In this document: in pieces, positions 3,801 to 16,317 of the stretch
Numbering within the stretch: position 1 is the stretch's first letter
How the letters are laid out: each line of letters begins with the position of its first letter
IMG/VR virus record: IMGVR_UViG_3300027806_000995
Span: 1 to 26,123 of that record
Source of the DNA: a virus
Strand: one strand, 5' to 3'
Length of the DNA: 26,123 bases
Position numbers and translations under genes: made by a program
Notes under the pieces: model-generated
What the model was told of the DNA's origin: nothing
What the model saw: only the letters and a program-made list of their open reading frames with translations
Database searches by the model: none

Positions 3801-6798
3801 GCAAAGCGCCCTCATGACGCTGGCCCACGAGATCGGCCATGTGGTGAGCTGGATGGACGAGCGAGACATCCGCCTCGGCAACCTGGGCGGGCACATCATG
3901 AATGTGCAGAAGTTTTTGAAAGGATCGTTCCCGCTGGATGGAAAGAACATTGCCGTAAAGGACATCAAAGCAGAATTGATCGGCGTCTCGGAATGGTGGA
4001 AGCCCATCGACCATAAGCGTGCTCCGGCTCCGTATGTGAAATACCGACACAGCGCGGTGGAGCTGTATGCCGATGCCGTCTCGGTGTTGTTCAACTCGCC
4101 TGCCGACCTGGAGCAACGCGCGCCGAATTTCTGGAAAGCCTTCTGGAACTACGCCGACGCCCGCCCACAGGTGAAGGCGAGCTTGTTTGAAATCCAAAGC
4201 CGGATTCAGAACGGGCGGGAGGCCGTGCTGGACAAGCGCCTGGAGCGCGACTTGGCCTCTTTCAAAGCCGGGCGCGAGACTTTCCTGCGCAAGCACAACG
4301 CCGCCCAAGAGCGCCGCCGCTCGCTCACGGGCTGGTGGGAGGATGTCAAAGACCAATACTGGGCCCGCTACCAACCCCTCATTGAGTCCGCCGCCAAGGC
4401 CCGCGCCGCCGGGAAGATCACCCCCGCCGAGGAGGACGCCTACCGATGGATGACCGAGGAACACCCGCTGGCCGATGGCAAGCTGCAACTCCACCTCGCC
4501 GATATTGGCCGCCTCTACCAAAAGCTCGACGAGGCGGGCATCTCCCGCGACCTGCTCGGCCTCTCGCTGAAATACCACCGCATCGCCAACGAACGGCTCG
4601 ATGTGATGCAACAAATCGACGGTGAGATGGTGAAGGTGGGCGAGACGGGCCGGGCCGTGATGGCCAACCCTGGCGGCGAAACCGCCCGCACCGCCACCGA
4701 AATGCTCGCCAAGCTGCGCGCCTCGATGTCGCCGGAGCAGGCCGCCGCCCTGGATGAAACCCTCTCGGGCTTTCGCGCCGTGGTTTTCTCTGTAATGGAG
4801 GATGCCAATGCCTCCGGGATGTTCAGTCCGCAACTCTGGGAAACTATTAGCAATAACCGCGAGAACTACGCGGCCTTCACTCCGCTGGAATATGTGGAGG
4901 AGTATTTGCCCTCGGCCATCAAGAAGCAGATTGGAACCTTCAAGGAAATCGCCGACCCGCTCCAACAAACGGTGCTCAAGATGATCTCGATCCACCGCGC
5001 CGCTCAGAACAACCGCTTCAAGCTGGGCGTGGCCGACATGCTCCGCGAAGTCGCGCCGGAACTCATCACCGATGCGCCGATGGCTTACAACGGCAAGGCC
5101 ATGGTGCCACAGCCGCCCCGCGACAGCGATCTCGCCTTGCTGCAATGGAAGGACGCCGGGCAACTCCAGGGGATCCATATTCCCAAACGCTACGCCGCCA
5201 TGTTCGAGGACAAGAGCCCGTCGGAGCGCGATGCCATCCTGCGATTCCTCGCCACGGGATTCCAGCGGGCCGTTTACGGAGCGATCATCCGCTACAACCC
5301 GGCCTTCCAGTTTTTCATGTCCCCGGCCCGCGACCTTCAACGCTCGCTCACCAACATGCCGGGCGGAGTGAAAGGCCGGGCCAAATTTTTAATGAACCTG
5401 TTAAGCCCGCAATCTTGGGGGGCCTCGGTGGATTGGGCGCGGGGAGATATTGGGCGCTCGGCCCTCCTGCGCGAGATGGTAGAGAACGCCGCCGTGGGCG
5501 GGCCGCACTCGGCCTTTGGCGGGAAATTGCAGGGCGATGATGATGCGCTCGTGGCGATCCTGCGAAAATTCCACCTTCAAGACCAACCCACCCGCAATGC
5601 GCTCCTGCGTCCTGTGATGAGAACGCTTAAAGCCATCGAGTTTGGCGGGCAAGTCCTGCAACTCCTGCCAAAAGCCGCCGCCTATCAGGTGATGGTAAAG
5701 GATATGGGGATGCCCGCGCCGCAAGCTGCGAACTCGATCCGCAACCACATCGGCATTCCGAACTACTACAAGAAGGGCCGCAATGTCACCTCCGCCGGGG
5801 CGTTGGTGCCGTTCCTCAACATTTTTCTCCGCTCCTACGAATCGCTCTACCGCAATCTCTCGGGCAAGGAGCGCAACATGGGTGGCAAGGAATGGTGGAT
5901 CGCCTGGGCGCTGACCGGCGGTGGCCTCTACGCCGTAATGCAAACGCTCGCCCGCGAGGGAGTCTTTGGCGAAGACCTCCAGCGCCTCTACTCCCGTGTG
6001 CCGAATTGGGACATGACGAACTTCGGCATTGTGCCGCTCGGCGAAGTCTCGACCGGCGACACCGGAGGCAAGACGGTTTACCTCCGCCTGCCGCAAGACG
6101 AGGGCTTGCGCGTCATTAACGGCACGGTGGCGAAGCTCCTGCAATCTGGCATCCGCACGGCCCAAGGCGACCCGACCGCGCCAAAGCTCGGCGAGGTTTT
6201 TGACGGCATCAGCAGCCAGGTTCCCGGCGTGAATCCCGTGGTGGAAGTGGCACAGAACTGGACAACCTTCCTCGCCGGGCGCAACCCCCGCGACGATTTC
6301 CGAAACAAGAACATCCTCACCGAGGATCAATGGCTGGCCGGTGGCTGGGACGCCGCCAAGCCAATGCTGGGCTGGACGCTCGGGGCCACTGGCATCACGA
6401 ACTTTTTCAATTACGATCCCGAGGCGGACACCTTGACCGAGATGGCCATCTCCTCCACGCCGGTCTTCAACCGCCTGCTCAAGATCAGCGACCGGGGCGT
6501 TTACCAAAACGAGAAAGCCGTGGATCAAGCCGATGCCCGCGACATGGCCAAGGCGCGCCTGACATTGCCCGATTTTGTGCAAGGGCTACGCACAGAATTT
6601 AACTACCTCAAAGGCCGAGGCGACCGCCGCAGCGAGCGCGAGAAAGACCGCTACAGCGAACTTCTCCTCTGGAACCGCTCCTACCGCGACGCCATGGAGC
6701 AAGTGGAAACCTCGATGGAACAAGGCAACCGCCCCTCCGCCCGAGACGCCATCCAAACCCTCATCCAAGAAAGCCGCGACTACCGGCCCGCGAACTAA
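799..6798 (+). CDS. Large polyvalent protein with ParB-like and HEIGH metallopeptidase domains (probable ejected internal virion protein)
   Basis: A 1999-residue multidomain protein. In order: an N-terminus with three AEAFLD repeats (residues 3-8, 14-19, 29-34) and a fourth QAFLD at 450-454; a Gly/Ala-rich hydrophobic stretch near residues 180-215 that could insert in a membrane; a ParB-like domain at about 515-620 with ISGRHRLDLF near 570; a zinc metallopeptidase-like domain with HEIGH at 1010-1014 and a likely third ligand Glu1088 in AVELYADA; a long helical region; and a C-terminal segment with NPAFQFFMSPARD and hydrophobic helices, resembling the LPD38-type domain of polyvalent proteins. 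Polyvalent proteins of phages and conjugative elements are known to enter the cell with the DNA and act early against host defences or in DNA handling. Peptidase activity and ejection are inferred. Codon use drops in GC around 2556-2750, suggesting a swapped segment. The stop overlaps the convergent integrase stop. Confidence 0.9.
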   Translation: MTAEAFLDEELPSAEAFLDAAEPAPSISAEAFLDAPEEPLPSPVPTPFEERPTGMVALDPVPQAKPSPLPNPAEEQTASLSRDALADANAKRGIFSPDSAPYRLIGEQFAIDPLRYDEAAEELWKDGLIDSDQYYRMMNDAVEIKPAAQRRRALETQAGTNPELKAALYGLTKGAIQTAGAIGVGGAAGAGLAATGPGAIVGGIAAGTGTAMVLGDMVDTFAEKLAQENETIASLLAAKELFPGYDTAGQLASVVIPAPYAVSKLKTAASLIATERGAGEAAKFAARVTGTGAGIGAATDLAVQGGMAGVNLATGNPVDFSMESLAVSTALGGLTAGLGVRSQNKIYKPEELVGLERRALDGTASFEEFRDYSTMRAAVETLRKDDRLLSADAVRRATADFMGTPALDVTEIINPRFQQQALADAGLVLPYAAAPTAAPVAGAPVAYTGQAFLDRGGPAPAFQGGTNALPGPEGIPALPGPLPEAPAVNPQINPAPAPLPESPTESTLLEAPIVEYPVANLKLSKDVPNFKENADPQTGVVKGEALQGQVDRRGMAPIVAWRRLNGQVEVISGRHRLDLFRRNQVGTIPTQIFNEADGFSIQDALTLDAELNIRDGQGTIKDYADYFRNSEIGEQQATERGLLSRQKGISGFAIGKGGSDDLYAAFSAGKLSESKAAAIALAAPGDAEMQRVGMQFAKELSAPELTSFIAVNRRAKQPGAKQGDLFGNSDDNLNAAVALVKASRKRIGELDDQILSVKGAVKRPEAARKMGVDVNDPEAIRTRMVELEAQKEKYIRFFDHPEILSEVRALAFGEAAPIKPPTIATNGEGNLIAEGEMPFNLTSEPEPAPVAIEPVDEDAARRAAIRKAGEENTMSLFDAGPLPAAKPKGKSSGYADAGPLTAPAPVSAPAAKPDMATYSDAQIYADYPEAVGVVRTKGPGWTMPLILGGTDKVPVMEMPEIVEFYRSLVGQDPSVRNLRSLGLFNPASGNVSIRPDIFQNEQSALMTLAHEIGHVVSWMDERDIRLGNLGGHIMNVQKFLKGSFPLDGKNIAVKDIKAELIGVSEWWKPIDHKRAPAPYVKYRHSAVELYADAVSVLFNSPADLEQRAPNFWKAFWNYADARPQVKASLFEIQSRIQNGREAVLDKRLERDLASFKAGRETFLRKHNAAQERRRSLTGWWEDVKDQYWARYQPLIESAAKARAAGKITPAEEDAYRWMTEEHPLADGKLQLHLADIGRLYQKLDEAGISRDLLGLSLKYHRIANERLDVMQQIDGEMVKVGETGRAVMANPGGETARTATEMLAKLRASMSPEQAAALDETLSGFRAVVFSVMEDANASGMFSPQLWETISNNRENYAAFTPLEYVEEYLPSAIKKQIGTFKEIADPLQQTVLKMISIHRAAQNNRFKLGVADMLREVAPELITDAPMAYNGKAMVPQPPRDSDLALLQWKDAGQLQGIHIPKRYAAMFEDKSPSERDAILRFLATGFQRAVYGAIIRYNPAFQFFMSPARDLQRSLTNMPGGVKGRAKFLMNLLSPQSWGASVDWARGDIGRSALLREMVENAAVGGPHSAFGGKLQGDDDALVAILRKFHLQDQPTRNALLRPVMRTLKAIEFGGQVLQLLPKAAAYQVMVKDMGMPAPQAANSIRNHIGIPNYYKKGRNVTSAGALVPFLNIFLRSYESLYRNLSGKERNMGGKEWWIAWALTGGGLYAVMQTLAREGVFGEDLQRLYSRVPNWDMTNFGIVPLGEVSTGDTGGKTVYLRLPQDEGLRVINGTVAKLLQSGIRTAQGDPTAPKLGEVFDGISSQVPGVNPVVEVAQNWTTFLAGRNPRDDFRNKNILTEDQWLAGGWDAAKPMLGWTLGATGITNFFNYDPEADTLTEMAISSTPVFNRLLKISDRGVYQNEKAVDQADARDMAKARLTLPDFVQGLRTEFNYLKGRGDRRSEREKDRYSELLLWNRSYRDAMEQVETSMEQGNRPSARDAIQTLIQESRDYRPAN

Positions 6799-7976
6799 AG
6801 CGGGTCCGGCTCGGTCACGAGGTCGTGATAATAAGCCCAGGTGGTCTGTGTGCTGGCATGGCGGAGCATCCGGCTCGCCACCTCCAACCCGTCGCGCATG
6901 GCAATCTCCGCGCCGAACTGCATCCGCAGATTGTAAGATAATTTTTTCCCACGGCGTGCGAGGAACTTTTCGACAAAGCGATTGATGTCCCGCTGGCAAA
7001 GGTTCTCTGCGTCGGTCTTGTTTTCCCTGGGGATCACATATTCCTGCGCCTCGGGGAAAGCGGCGCGCAACTGCGCCAGCAAATCCTCGCGCACCGGCAC
7101 CGCACCATCCCGGCCCTTGGGATAGTAAAATTGCCCGCCGCCCAAGTCGCGCTTCACAAAATCGAGCGCCTTGCTTTTCTTTCCCTGGCGAATCCACGCC
7201 CAGCGAAGATCCACGGCCTCGGTATTCCGCAGCCCACACCACCGCATGAGCGCAAAGACCGCCCACACGCGCCGGTCTTGTGGATCGGCGCTCTGGCGCA
7301 ACCGCTCCGCCGCCTCCTCCATTCTCTTCAAAACCTCGGGAGAGATGCAGACAAACGCCGACCTCTTTACCGCGCCCTTGCCCTCCCGCCGCCTCGTGGA
7401 GAACACCACGGAGCGGAAGTTTTCCACCGGGGGCAATTTCAAAGCGGCATAGGCATGAATCACGCTCGGCTGCACCACGCTCTTGATCGAGGCCACATCG
7501 GAGCGAATGCCATCCTCGCCGCGCCCGGCCTTGGCCTGCTCCTGAGTCCACCGCCGCAGCGCCTCGCCATCGAGCGCCCGGTCTAGCTTCACCTCACGGG
7601 GGCTGGTCGTCTCGAAAGCCGCCTCGACAAACCGCTCGAAGCGGCGCGCCACGGCCTTGGCGCTTTTTATCGGCCCCGCCTCCTCCCAGCGATCCATGAG
7701 CTCGCCCACCGTGGAAAACCCCGGGCGAGCGACAACGGCATCGAGCGCCACCTGATCCTGCTCGAAAAGCGCCCTTGCCATTTCCTTCGCCTTACGCTCC
7801 GCCGACCGGCGCTCGGATTTGGAACGAATCTCGGTGCTGCGTTTGTAGCGTTTGCCCGCAATCTGGACGCGATAATACCAAGCGCCCTTCTCCTCATCCC
7901 AATAAACCGAAGCCTCGCCATGTTTGCGGATCTGTTTTGGGGGGCCACTTTGGGGGCCACTTTGGTTAGGATTCAT
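6795..7976 (-). CDS. int: Tyrosine recombinase integrase
   Basis: A 393-residue site-specific recombinase that would integrate the phage into a host tRNA-Lys gene using the adjacent attP. The N-terminal part (about 15-75) is a basic arm-binding-like region, residues 85-185 form the core-binding SAM-like helices, and the C-terminal half is catalytic. Visible catalytic residues are Arg250 (CGLRNTEA), Lys287 (PKGRDGAVPV), Arg351 in YNLR, His373 in LRHAS and the nucleophile Tyr382 in AYYH. The usual first His of the HxxR box is Tyr348, a tolerated substitution. The start ATG at 7974-7976 lies just outside two tandem copies of the attP arm repeat, which are translated as SGPQSGP, so attP and the int 5' end overlap. 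It converges with the polyvalent protein gene, overlapping it by four bases. A TTGACA lies upstream (8012-8007 on the minus strand) but I see no well-spaced -10. Confidence 0.95.
   Translation of the reverse strand: MNPNQSGPQSGPPKQIRKHGEASVYWDEEKGAWYYRVQIAGKRYKRSTEIRSKSERRSAERKAKEMARALFEQDQVALDAVVARPGFSTVGELMDRWEEAGPIKSAKAVARRFERFVEAAFETTSPREVKLDRALDGEALRRWTQEQAKAGRGEDGIRSDVASIKSVVQPSVIHAYAALKLPPVENFRSVVFSTRRREGKGAVKRSAFVCISPEVLKRMEEAAERLRQSADPQDRRVWAVFALMRWCGLRNTEAVDLRWAWIRQGKKSKALDFVKRDLGGGQFYYPKGRDGAVPVREDLLAQLRAAFPEAQEYVIPRENKTDAENLCQRDINRFVEKFLARRGKKLSYNLRMQFGAEIAMRDGLEVASRMLRHASTQTTWAYYHDLVTEPDPL
7940..7962 (+). repeat. attP arm repeats 1 and 2 (tandem GGGGGCCACTT)
   Basis: Two copies of GGGGGCCACTT with a 12-bp period (7940-7950 and 7952-7962). 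They lie inside the first codons of the integrase gene. An identical doublet occurs on the other side of the tRNA-like core at 8149-8171, which is the arrangement expected of arm-type integrase or accessory-protein sites. Confidence 0.8.
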
Positions 7977-8148: not shown

Positions 8149-8171
8149 GGGGGCCACTTTGGGGGCCACTT
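8149..8171 (+). repeat. attP arm repeats 4 and 5 (tandem GGGGGCCACTT)
   Basis: A second tandem doublet (8149-8159 and 8161-8171) with the same 12-bp period as the doublet at 7940. It ends three bases before the stop codon of the neighbouring minus-strand gene. With the other three copies it brackets the tRNA-derived core within about 230 bp. Confidence 0.8.
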
Positions 8172-9412: not shown

Positions 9413-10279
9413 TCAGGCGGCTTTCAGTTTCTTCATTTCCTCAGCCAGGGCCCAGAGGGCGCGGTTGATGTTGGTGTTTTGGTCGATGCCTCCGATTTCA
9501 CGGGTGCGGCGACGGGCTACGAGGCGGCCGTTTTCGTTGCGTTGGACATAGCCAAGGCCACCGCGGACGAGGTTTTCCTGCACGGCGTTGAGCGTGTTCC
9601 ACATGGTCGGGGCTGCGTCCTCATGGCGGCGGAGGGTGAGGATCTGCTCGGCTTTGACGGGTGCGGGTTTCTCGGGGTCGTCATATCTGGCAACCAGGGC
9701 GGCGCGGGCGAATGCTTGGCGCTCGCCTTCGGTGAGTCTGAGGGCGGCCATTTCGTTGACGCTCTCCGAAACCTCGGGGAGCCGGTCGAGGATGCTGATA
9801 CAGCCTTCGATGACTTGGCCCTCGATGTTTCCCTTGTGGGGGATGCGGATGTCGTCGATGAGGTTTTGAGCGACTACCATGCCGTTGCCGCAAACGAGGC
9901 GGAAAACTCCGGCCATGAGGCGATAGGCGCTTGTCCCGTCATGGGAATTGAGAAGGACGATCTCGTTATGCGTGCCGCCGACCTGGAGCGGCTGGCTGTC
10001 GTGGCGGAGGCGGATGAGGTGCTTTGTGAAGCCTCGTTTTTCTTCCTCCCGGCTGCCGCCTTGCATGACGGCGTATGGGCGGAAACCCTCACGGGCAAGG
10101 CCGGTGAGAATTTCGCTCGTTGGGATGTATTTGTAAGCGGCGGACCGGCTGCCGTGGGCACCTTCGGCAAATACCGAAGGAGCGATCTGGCGGAGGCGTT
10201 CGGGTTCGATGGGGCCGGTGCGGCTGGTGAAGTTTACGGCTCCGTTGCTGCGGGTTCTTGCGAATCGATTGATTGTCAT
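9413..10279 (-). CDS. DUF932 family phage/plasmid protein
   Basis: A 288-residue protein with features of the DUF932 (YfjQ-like) family common on phages and plasmids: a strand/helix-rich centre with GGTHNEIVLLNSHDGTSAYRL followed by RLVCGNGMVV at about residues 115-150, and a long helical C-terminal half. The molecular role of the family is not established; links to plasmid or phage DNA maintenance have been suggested. I chose the ATG at 10277-10279 (MTINRFART) over the upstream in-frame ATG at 10375. The extra 32 residues are basic and low-complexity and cover a promoter-like and hairpin-rich leader. It is followed by the small-gene cluster and preceded by a 169-bp leader. Confidence 0.85.
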   Translation of the reverse strand: MTINRFARTRSNGAVNFTSRTGPIEPERLRQIAPSVFAEGAHGSRSAAYKYIPTSEILTGLAREGFRPYAVMQGGSREEEKRGFTKHLIRLRHDSQPLQVGGTHNEIVLLNSHDGTSAYRLMAGVFRLVCGNGMVVAQNLIDDIRIPHKGNIEGQVIEGCISILDRLPEVSESVNEMAALRLTEGERQAFARAALVARYDDPEKPAPVKAEQILTLRRHEDAAPTMWNTLNAVQENLVRGGLGYVQRNENGRLVARRRTREIGGIDQNTNINRALWALAEEMKKLKAA

Positions 10280-10347
10280 TTTTCGTCTTTCTTTTAGAGG
10301 TGCCCGGTGCCGCCGGGTCGGAGACTGCGTTTTGCGGTCTGGCGTTG

Positions 10348-10375
10348 AATGTATCGACAAACAAAAGGAGCGCAA
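10348..10375 (-). promoter_or_regulatory. Candidate promoter and leader for the DUF932 gene
   Basis: On the minus strand, TTGCGC (10375-10370) and TACATT (10353-10348) are separated by 16 bases, a plausible though weak sigma70-type promoter. The 68-base leader down to the ATG contains two small inverted repeats: CCCGG/CCGGG (10303-10317), and AGACTGC/GCGGTCT (10322-10340) with one non-Watson-Crick pair. Confidence 0.35.
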
Positions 10376-14020: not shown

Positions 14021-14944
14021 ATGAACTGGATAAAAATGCGCAGCAATCTCTGGGACGACCCTCGCGTCGCCCGGATTTGCGACCTCACCCACAAACGCGA
14101 AGCCGAAGTCATCGGGGGCCTCTACTGGCTCTGGACGATGGCCGACCAACAGACCGCCGATGGACGCCTCGCTGGCTTTTCCCTCGCCGCCATCGACCGC
14201 AAGACAGGAATCAAAAACTTCGGAGCCGCCCTTGCTAAAGTTGGCTGGATTCTGGAAAGCGAAGAAGGCGTGGAGATTGCACGCTTTGATGAGCACAACG
14301 GAGCCTCCGCCAAACGCCGCGCCTCCGAGGCCAAGCGTATGCAATTCCTTCGCAAACCGAGCGCAATCCGTGCGCAACCGATGCGAACGGAAATCGAACA
14401 CGATGCGCAGCTAGATAAGAATAGAATAGAATATACCCCTATAAGTCCCCAAGGGGACGAGGAATTGGAGTTGGATTGCGAGGAATCTTCCGCACCCGAG
14501 CATCCCGTTCTCACCCGCCTGCGCGATTTGTTCCGCATGAAACCCGGAACTGACTTCGACGCCTCCACCCACCGGGCTTGGCAAAAAAATAAAAAAAGCG
14601 CCGCCGCGCTCCCCGAGTCCGATTGGGCTCTCCTCGCGTGGGCCTACCGCCAGACCGAGGGCGACGCCTACCGCTTCCGTCGCCGCGACCCCGCCACCTT
14701 GCTGAATAACCTCCTTGCCGAAGTCCTCCGCGCCCGAGAATGGGCCAAGGCCGCCGGAGTCAACCCCACCGCCGCCCGGCCCCGGCCCACCGAGCCCGAA
14801 GGCTGGCAGGACATCATCACCTCCACCGATCCCAGCTACAACTGCACGACCTGGTTCGAGCTTCCCGAAAGCCTCCGCGCCTTCGTCCGCGAGCGCGTCG
14901 CGCAAATCGAAGCCGAAAACGCCGCCGCTACCGCCGCCGCCTGA
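14021..14944 (+). CDS. Replication initiator, lambda O/DnaT-like
   Basis: A 307-residue protein. The N-terminal 90 residues (MNWIKMRSNLWDDPRVARI through GRLAGFSLAAIDRKTGIKNF) match the winged-helix pattern of phage replication proteins that bind the origin. A variable linker (about 105-150) covers iterons and an AT-rich stretch. A C-terminal domain (about 165-290) would contact the helicase. The gene directly precedes dnaB, the classic initiator-plus-helicase pair. I prefer ATG 14021, just after the upstream stop, over ATG 13976, which lies inside the previous gene; neither has a good ribosome binding site. The origin-like repeats lie in the linker coding region, as in lambdoid O genes. Confidence 0.8.
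   Translation: MNWIKMRSNLWDDPRVARICDLTHKREAEVIGGLYWLWTMADQQTADGRLAGFSLAAIDRKTGIKNFGAALAKVGWILESEEGVEIARFDEHNGASAKRRASEAKRMQFLRKPSAIRAQPMRTEIEHDAQLDKNRIEYTPISPQGDEELELDCEESSAPEHPVLTRLRDLFRMKPGTDFDASTHRAWQKNKKSAAALPESDWALLAWAYRQTEGDAYRFRRRDPATLLNNLLAEVLRAREWAKAAGVNPTAARPRPTEPEGWQDIITSTDPSYNCTTWFELPESLRAFVRERVAQIEAENAAATAAA
14351..14450 (+). other. Candidate replication origin: 11-bp iterons plus AT-rich stretch
   Basis: Three 11-bp units in tandem, CGCAAACCGAG (14351), CGCAATCCGTG (14362) and CGCAACCGATG (14373), are followed by a degenerate fourth at 14384. An AT-rich stretch with three AGAAT units follows within about 14410-14450. The 11-bp period is not a multiple of three, so the repeat is not explained by repeated amino acids. 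The position in the linker of an O-like initiator next to dnaB matches lambdoid origins. Confidence 0.65.
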
Positions 14945-14946
14945 CC

Positions 14947-16317
14947 ATGACCAACCCACTACCCGAAACCTCCCTCGCCGAAAAAGCCATCCTCGGCGCG
15001 GCGTTGCAGAATGGCACCACTGCCGACAGCGTGCTCGAAGCCATCCAGCCCGAGCAGCTTGTCTTGCCCGCGCACCAGATCATCTTGCGCGTCATCGCCG
15101 AGTTGCGCGAGGCCGCGAAGCCCGTCGATTTCATCATTGTCACCACCGAGTTGGAGAAGCGCGGCCAGCTCGGCGAGTGCGGCGATGCCCACTACATCAC
15201 CGAGCTAGGCGCAGATTTCGCCCAAGTTGCGAACTGGCGTCACTACGCCAGCGAAGTCCTCGATACCTGGAAACGCCGCAAAATGCGCGCCGCCGCCCTC
15301 GCCATGGCCGAGGCCGCGAACGACTACGCCCTCACCACCGACGATGCGCAGGAGCGTTGCGAGCAAGTCCTCTACGGCCTCCGCGACCACACTACCCGCG
15401 AGAACCCCGTCGCCCCCTGCCGCGATGCCGTCGTCTCCGCCGTTGAGCACATCGAGGCCGTTTACCACAACCGGGGCAAAACCATCGGCCTCGCCACCGG
15501 CATCCATGATCTCGACCGCAGCACCGGAGGCTTCATGGGCGGCCAGATGATCGTCGTCGCCGCCCGGCCCGCCTGCGGCAAAAGCGCGCTCGGGATGCAG
15601 TTCGCCCTTCATGCCGTCAAGGAACTCGCTGTGCCCACGCTCGTTTTCTCGGTCGAAATGCCCGGGCGCGAGCTTATGGTCCGCGCCATTTGCTCCGAGG
15701 CCGGTGTCAATCTCCAGCGCCTCCGCGATGGATTTTTCGACCAACGCACCCTCGCCAATGTCGCCCACATCGCCGGAGGATTGGTGAAAAGCCCCCTCTT
15801 CATCGACGAGACCCCCGGCCTCACCGTCGCGCAATTCCGCGCCCGCGCCCGCCGCGCCAAGGCTGCCCACAAGATCGGCCTCATCGTCGTGGACTACCTC
15901 CAATTCATGCACGGCAGCGGCGACGCCGCCCGCCAATCCCGCGCCCTCGAAGTCTCCGAGATCAGCAAAGCCATCAAGACCGTCGCCAAGGAACTCGACA
16001 TCCCCATCGTGGCCCTCGCCCAGCTCAACCGCGACGCCGATGGCGACCACACCAAGCCCAAGCTCTCAAACCTCCGCGAGTCCGGCGGCATCGAGCAAGA
16101 CGCCGACACCGTGCTCCTCATCCACCGCCTCGATAAAAACAAAAAACGCGCAGACGAGGACGCCGAGCCCATGGATCACAACACCCTCCTGATCCTCGCC
16201 AAGCAACGCAACGGGCCTACTCCCGAGATCAAGCTGAACTTCATCGGCGAGCACACCGTCTTCCGAAATGTCACCGAAAAACAATACAGCAACAACATGA
16301 ACCAAAGACAGAAATGA
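14947..16317 (+). CDS. dnaB: Replicative DNA helicase, DnaB family
   Basis: A 456-residue protein of usual DnaB length. The N-terminal domain (about 5-100; SLAEKAILGAALQNG, then VDFIIVTTELEKRG) is the helical DnaG-interaction domain. The RecA-like domain has Walker A in ARPACGKS (206-213) and Walker B LIVVDYLQF with Asp316. Downstream are the ALAQLNRD motif and the arginine-containing LRESGGIEQDADTVLLIHR. It unwinds DNA ahead of the phage or host polymerase. The ATG at 14947 lies two bases after the initiator stop; a longer frame (14740) is a shadow of the initiator gene. The stop overlaps the next ATG by four bases. Confidence 0.96.
   Translation: MTNPLPETSLAEKAILGAALQNGTTADSVLEAIQPEQLVLPAHQIILRVIAELREAAKPVDFIIVTTELEKRGQLGECGDAHYITELGADFAQVANWRHYASEVLDTWKRRKMRAAALAMAEAANDYALTTDDAQERCEQVLYGLRDHTTRENPVAPCRDAVVSAVEHIEAVYHNRGKTIGLATGIHDLDRSTGGFMGGQMIVVAARPACGKSALGMQFALHAVKELAVPTLVFSVEMPGRELMVRAICSEAGVNLQRLRDGFFDQRTLANVAHIAGGLVKSPLFIDETPGLTVAQFRARARRAKAAHKIGLIVVDYLQFMHGSGDAARQSRALEVSEISKAIKTVAKELDIPIVALAQLNRDADGDHTKPKLSNLRESGGIEQDADTVLLIHRLDKNKKRADEDAEPMDHNTLLILAKQRNGPTPEIKLNFIGEHTVFRNVTEKQYSNNMNQRQK

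Follow-up and report, generated by a model that had tools for sequence, protein, structure and literature searches.

The 26,123-nucleotide stretch of viral DNA analysed here (the window) probably carries, at 14348-14458, the theta-type replication origin of the phage, embedded in its own initiator gene, a reading drawn from sequence comparison and held at a probability of about 0.85. It is supported by signs of selection at the DNA level, by the geometry of an array of half-sites, by a half-site word and a protein segment that have been swapped together, and by the conservation of an adjoining tract and hairpin. The most surprising result, which goes beyond what the original prediction had claimed, is that this tract and hairpin are conserved base for base across unrelated initiators. 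Searches of the open-access literature found in-gene origins (lambda, pSK41, KIRK) but no description of such a tract or hairpin; older work on P22 and the lambdoid phages may cover part of it. The genes and the non-array elements are as follows.

14021-14944, plus strand: replication initiator gene, 307 amino acids, with a winged helix-turn-helix (wHTH)-like N-terminal domain, a disordered linker and a helical C-terminal domain
14309-14353, plus strand: predicted basic helix (residues 97-111), putative half-site recognition element; its 3' end overlaps half-site F1
14411-14435, plus strand: AT-rich top-strand purine tract CTAGATAAGAATAGAATAGAATATA, probable DNA unwinding element
14436-14458, plus strand: C-run hairpin CCCCTATAA-GTCCCC-AA-GGGGAC, stem 14445-14450/14453-14458
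14947-16317, plus strand: DnaB-like replicative helicase (Pfam DnaB_C, 5.3e-81; DnaB N, 6.7e-21), presumed loading target

The initiator gene, with the helicase gene directly downstream, is assigned by its N-terminal domain. PHROG 2509 matches residues 2-124 (E 2.7e-32), and the matches to PHROGs 2509, 9474 and 3926 ('replication initiation protein') are confined to residues 1-134. No Pfam family matches the protein up to an E-value of 1, whereas lambda O and P22 gp18 strongly match PF04492 in a Pfam search and fall in different PHROGs, so that the 'O-like protein' of the original prediction is not supported as a family assignment. The full-length AlphaFold2 model was poor (pTM 0.37), and thus the model of the N-terminal domain alone was used (pLDDT 83, with the wHTH core mostly at 87-97). 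Structural comparison of this domain (Foldseek/VIA) gave a generic wHTH resemblance: Foldseek returned no match at E<=0.001, a PDB sequence search with the initiator returned none, and the Z-scores of 5.5 and 5.2 against the RepA_N structures 5kbj and 4pta are level with those of CRP-type wHTH proteins.

The tract and hairpin stand out by their synonymous conservation. Among 28 non-redundant relatives, synonymous codons of the tract are 98% identical, those of the hairpin are 98-99% conserved over most of the element, and over residues 127-144 as a whole 98-99% of the pairs that share a residue also share its codon; synonymous identity in the rest of the gene is ~0.4-0.8, typically about 0.6, against an expectation of 0.34-0.44. 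Within the tract, Tandem Repeats Finder (TRF) reports (AGAAT)3.2 at 14418-14433 with 100% matches, where the original prediction had placed AGAAT repeats. The 17-mer at 14414-14430 occurs in at least 120 loci, compared to 5 for a shuffled 17-mer of equal composition. These features suggest that 14411-14435 is probably a DNA unwinding element; a DnaA-trio reading of the tract was rejected, its repeat period being 5-6 bp, not 3. Elsewhere, at L087:3404-3492, AACGTTAC-type repeats are followed downstream by three tandem copies of the AGAAT tract, spaced 36 bp apart.

The hairpin is similarly widespread. A related pattern, ACCCCTATAGTCCCC-N2-8-GGGGAC, with 21 fixed bases, is found in at least 120 IMG/VR viral stretches bearing many different N-terminal domains; the window copy has one additional A ahead of GTCCCC and a 2-base loop. 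Among 101 newly read copies there are 47 with non-redundant upstream DNA, and these are located mid-ORF in initiator-like proteins; 9 of 10 sampled hairpin proteins match a variety of PHROG families (initiation, O-like, primosomal or DnaD-like). Three hairpin-bearing ORFs have the Pfam N-termini PF04492, PF13730 and PF07120, and the CUS-3 O gene also matches PF04492. When named phages were searched blind with a 32-base sequence, the matches in 10 of 13 records lay in genes annotated for replication protein O, DnaD or initiation protein, with individual E-values that are weak. The annotated rep_origin of P22 has a similar C-run hairpin at its right edge, where it ends on ATACCCCCTTACCCCCTAAAGGGGGA.

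It is possible, if rather improbable, that the hairpin works outside the origin on the mRNA, as an attenuator, terminator or translational element. The conserved stem does lie in the transcribed strand, and the single-strand folding energy of the window copy is no better than that of shuffles (z -0.4), which would suit such a role. Against it, in many initiator families the hairpin holds a fixed position directly 3' of the putative melting tract, and it recurs at the edge of the P22 rep_origin, and no T-run follows the stem. For the hairpin itself, priming, strand marking and an RNA function are all candidate roles.

On the 5' side of the tract lies an array of six 6-bp half-sites (14348-14410), three forward and three inverted, in an 11-bp phase with a central step of 13 bp (F-11-F-11-F-13-R-11-R-11-R).

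14348-14353, plus strand: half-site F1, CTTCGC
14359-14364, plus strand: half-site F2, GAGCGC
14370-14375, plus strand: half-site F3, GTGCGC
14383-14388, minus strand: half-site R1, GCGAAC (GTTCGC inverted)
14394-14399, minus strand: half-site R2, TCGAAC (GTTCGA inverted)
14405-14410, minus strand: half-site R3, GCGCAG (CTGCGC inverted)

The arrangement was read with the help of 44 relatives from IMG/VR (59-97% identity) and one contig of a Verrucomicrobia metagenome-assembled genome, which reveal a nested palindrome with core spacings of 11, 11, 13, 11 and 11, its left half made up of the three direct units. TRF does report an 11-bp array, at 14351-14381 (2.9 copies, 76% matches, score 41), where the original prediction had placed three tandem units and a degraded fourth; the 11-bp direct units are real, but the 'fourth' is an inverted half of the palindrome. 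On this comparison the repeats, three of the six inverted, are half-sites in phase and not simple tandem iterons.

The half-sites of the window are themselves degenerate. The lag-11 signal in the window alone is modest (15 of 20 identities; gene-wide P ~0.02-0.03 against synonymous-codon nulls), and a four-site free-consensus version, again for the window alone, is not significant (P ~0.3). The six-site geometry scores 29/36 to GTTCGC, the top score in the 26-kb contig, where unrelated places all reach 21 or less, and a free-consensus test gives P=0.004 gene-wide under synonymous shuffling; this test is independent of the relatives' word, with a geometry nonetheless learned from them. When the word GTTCGC is fixed, none of 1000 synonymous shuffles reaches the score of the window array, a test that is not fully independent because the word was taken from related phages. 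That the 11-bp period breaks the codon register is correct, but without synonymous-shuffle nulls it was an insufficient ground for selection at the DNA level; the DNA-level element is borne out by the synonymous-null tests of the geometry together with the synonymous conservation of tract and hairpin.

Among relatives the half-site word varies (GTTCGC, GTCATC, GTCCGC, GTAACG, GTCACG and rarer words) while the geometry is kept, and relatives of types A-D each show the six-site geometry at the same place (P<=0.014 each). For GTAACG members such as Rac, CP2, VW6S and ZX5 the test on a single gene is weak, and their geometry therefore rests on pooled data. Generality was addressed with loci gathered by tract sequence alone. 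Direct repeats at 11-bp spacing lie 5' of the tract in 24/61 and 40/75 de-duplicated loci, compared to 1/58 and 10/71 control stretches, and inverted repeats at 13 bp in 56 of 75 loci compared to 14 of 71 controls; inverted repeats at 13, 24 and 35 bp are all far above the control stretches.

A second cluster of half-sites stands 210-340 bp upstream of the first, in the code for the N-terminal domain, in 35 of 42 de-replicated AGAGA-tract loci, and its best word is that of the first cluster in 37 of the 42 (21/21, 10/11 and 6/10), a match that counts in favour of the origin reading. In epsilon15 (L168, second cluster at gene nt 43-105) and Rac YdaU (L170, second cluster at gene nt ~147-178), for example, the two clusters share one word. 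In the window initiator gene no second cluster was found, the next best score of 20/36 being at background level. The second cluster could have a role in looping, autoregulation or handcuffing. Half-site clusters are typical of regulators, and a word-matched cluster near the gene start in many relatives is what might be expected if the array were not an origin but served the initiator operon as a transcriptional operator or a site of autoregulation. This is nevertheless very unlikely, given a site in mid-gene, just 5' of an AT/purine tract that is often followed by a C-run hairpin, with helicase or loader genes alongside as at the origins of lambda and P22.

The origin reading is further supported by a cassette that is exchanged between close relatives. 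Phages with near-identical flanks differ only in ~75-100 bp comprising the putative recognition helix and the half-sites: between close type A and type B members, nucleotide identity is 0.81-0.96 over residues 1-96, falls to 0.18-0.33 over residues 105-128, the block encoding the end of the predicted helix plus the half-sites, and returns to ~0.82 from residue 129 onward. The helix (AlphaFold2 pLDDT moderate, ~58-72 by block) has A97, K98, R100 and R111 fixed or nearly so, K98 and R100 being invariant and R111 near-invariant, and the half-site word is tracked best by the columns of residues 103 and 107, which lie one turn apart. These observations suggest that helix 97-111 may read the word. 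In the broad set, mean excess mutual information in the helix block is no higher than elsewhere, and covariation of helix and word there is partly phylogenetic; the A/B swap within the family, which the conserved core does not explain, is the cleaner evidence at the sequence level. Two further loci (L039 and L040) join an entirely different N-terminal domain to the hairpin and C-terminal domain of the window family, a natural domain swap exactly at the candidate origin.

Least probable of all is that selection on the protein, acting on a repetitive basic or acidic low-complexity linker, produced the repeats and tract incidentally: the tract does encode similar peptides (DKNRIE, REEKRRE) in coding contexts, but the lags of 11 and 13 are out of codon register, synonymous sites are 98-99% conserved in the rare codons CTA, ATA and AGA, the stem is retained even where a change in loop length puts its 3' arm in another frame (TPIVPxGD compared to TPIVPKGT), and the module is found away from long ORFs as well. 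One such copy, an AGAAT tract with upstream repeats at 22-bp spacing, is intergenic (L094 ~3433, reverse strand), with genes for an initiator-like protein and a DnaC-like loader alongside, and further tracts preceded by repeats lie outside a long ORF at L075:4485 and L099:4467. Together with the synonymous conservation, this argues for selection on DNA.

A DnaA-driven origin was rejected: no DnaA box TTATCCACA occurs near 14.4 kb, even with one mismatch, and the window as a whole has three matches compared to 1.9 expected. The GC skew, proposed in the original prediction as a check, was also set aside as origin evidence: its extremes (~7.75 and 12.75 kb) coincide with gene-strand switches, and the skew, following gene strand, thus lends no independent support. 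Elsewhere in the window, short 12-bp tandem repeats containing GGGGGCCAC (7936-7965 and 8149-8171) lie beside an integrase gene (6795-7976, minus strand) and are possibly integrase or excisionase arm sites, and a DUF932-family protein (9413-10375, minus strand; 4e-49; phrog_12094) is encoded between the integrase and replication genes.

A plausible mechanism would begin with the N-terminal domains of the initiator occupying the half-sites, lined up on one face of the DNA by their 11-bp phase, while helix 97-111 reads the word and a symmetric nucleoprotein complex is built. Under negative supercoiling the adjoining tract (14411-14435) would then melt, the C-terminal domain would pass DnaB, the product of the adjacent phage gene, to the strand thus exposed, and the single-stranded hairpin may mark or stabilise the point of entry or priming. 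The half-site complex, tract melting and DnaB loading are proposed by analogy with lambda (PMC7466680), pSK41 (PMC5703833) and RK2 (PMC4081077). Since tract and hairpin are common to phages with unrelated initiators, their reader is probably something those phages share (host or replicative helicase/primase/SSB machinery) and not the variable initiator domain. A more tentative extension, with the odds somewhat against it, is that one common factor (e.g. primase, PriA, SSB, or RNA polymerase at a single-strand promoter) reads both tract and hairpin, with initiator domain and half-sites swapped as self-addressed cassettes; if so, many phage origins would have this single-strand element, tract plus hairpin, in common.

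Mapped phage origins are rare, and these features offer a candidate-origin rule for many uncultured phages: phased GTNNNN half-sites, then an AT/purine tract, then a C-run hairpin, all within the initiator gene. The series of half-site words with the variable helix residues 103 and 107 provides a data set for a DNA-recognition code, and the tract and hairpin raise the question of what recognises a DNA element preserved without change in the coding sequence of unrelated phages.

Among known systems, the lambda origin is a precedent for an in-gene origin (PMC7466680). As in lambda gene O and P22 gene 18, the repeats of the window lie in the linker of the initiator coding sequence with a helicase or loader gene downstream, and, as a feature of sequence, the AT-rich stretch 14411-14435 adjoins them on the helicase-gene side. 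The order of iterons, AT-rich DNA and dyad is also that of lambda (28-bp dyad at L175:1163-1190; window dyad at 14445-14458), and P22 has a C-run hairpin of like design at its origin edge. The iterons of lambda are inverted repeats of 18-19 bp with starts 20-24 bp apart, compared to the 11/13-bp half-sites here, and lambda O and P22 gp18 carry the Phage_rep_O domain (PF04492) that the window initiator lacks. The predicted lambda-like origin therefore holds, at the level of sequence, in its place next to dnaB within the gene and in the order of its parts; with iteron type and Phage_rep_O domain, two defining features, both differing, it is classed as a lambda-type variant.

Closer in protein sequence are the PHROG 2509/9474 initiators (epsilon15, phiPSA1, BUCT711, Carin1 and Rac YdaU), whose N-terminal domains are homologous to that of the window initiator (32-61% identity); among them epsilon15, phiPSA1, BUCT711 and Carin1, with the word GTCCGC, also show the geometry above their own shuffles, at the linker or the second cluster. 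These initiators differ in having other C-terminal domains, DnaC/DnaT partners, a purine tract of AGAGA/AGAGGA compared to AGAAT in the window, and often a second half-site cluster in the N-terminal domain code, which the window family lacks. The RepA_N plasmid pSK41 has its Rep boxes centrally within rep (PMC5703833), and DNA-binding domain and origin are exchanged jointly in PLE satellites (PMC8263062) and in pPR9; no Pfam match to RepA_N was found in the window initiator, and the unit exchanged here is ~75-100 bp, unlike the whole domain of RepA_N plasmids and PLE. In RK2 the initiator TrfA binds one strand of the unwinding element (PMC4081077), and the repeats of the window tract, to judge by their sequence, could likewise be read as one single strand, with a different initiator and a different unwinding sequence. 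An origin embedded in its initiator gene is thus of a kind already known, and the unexpected part is the tract and hairpin shared between unrelated initiators.
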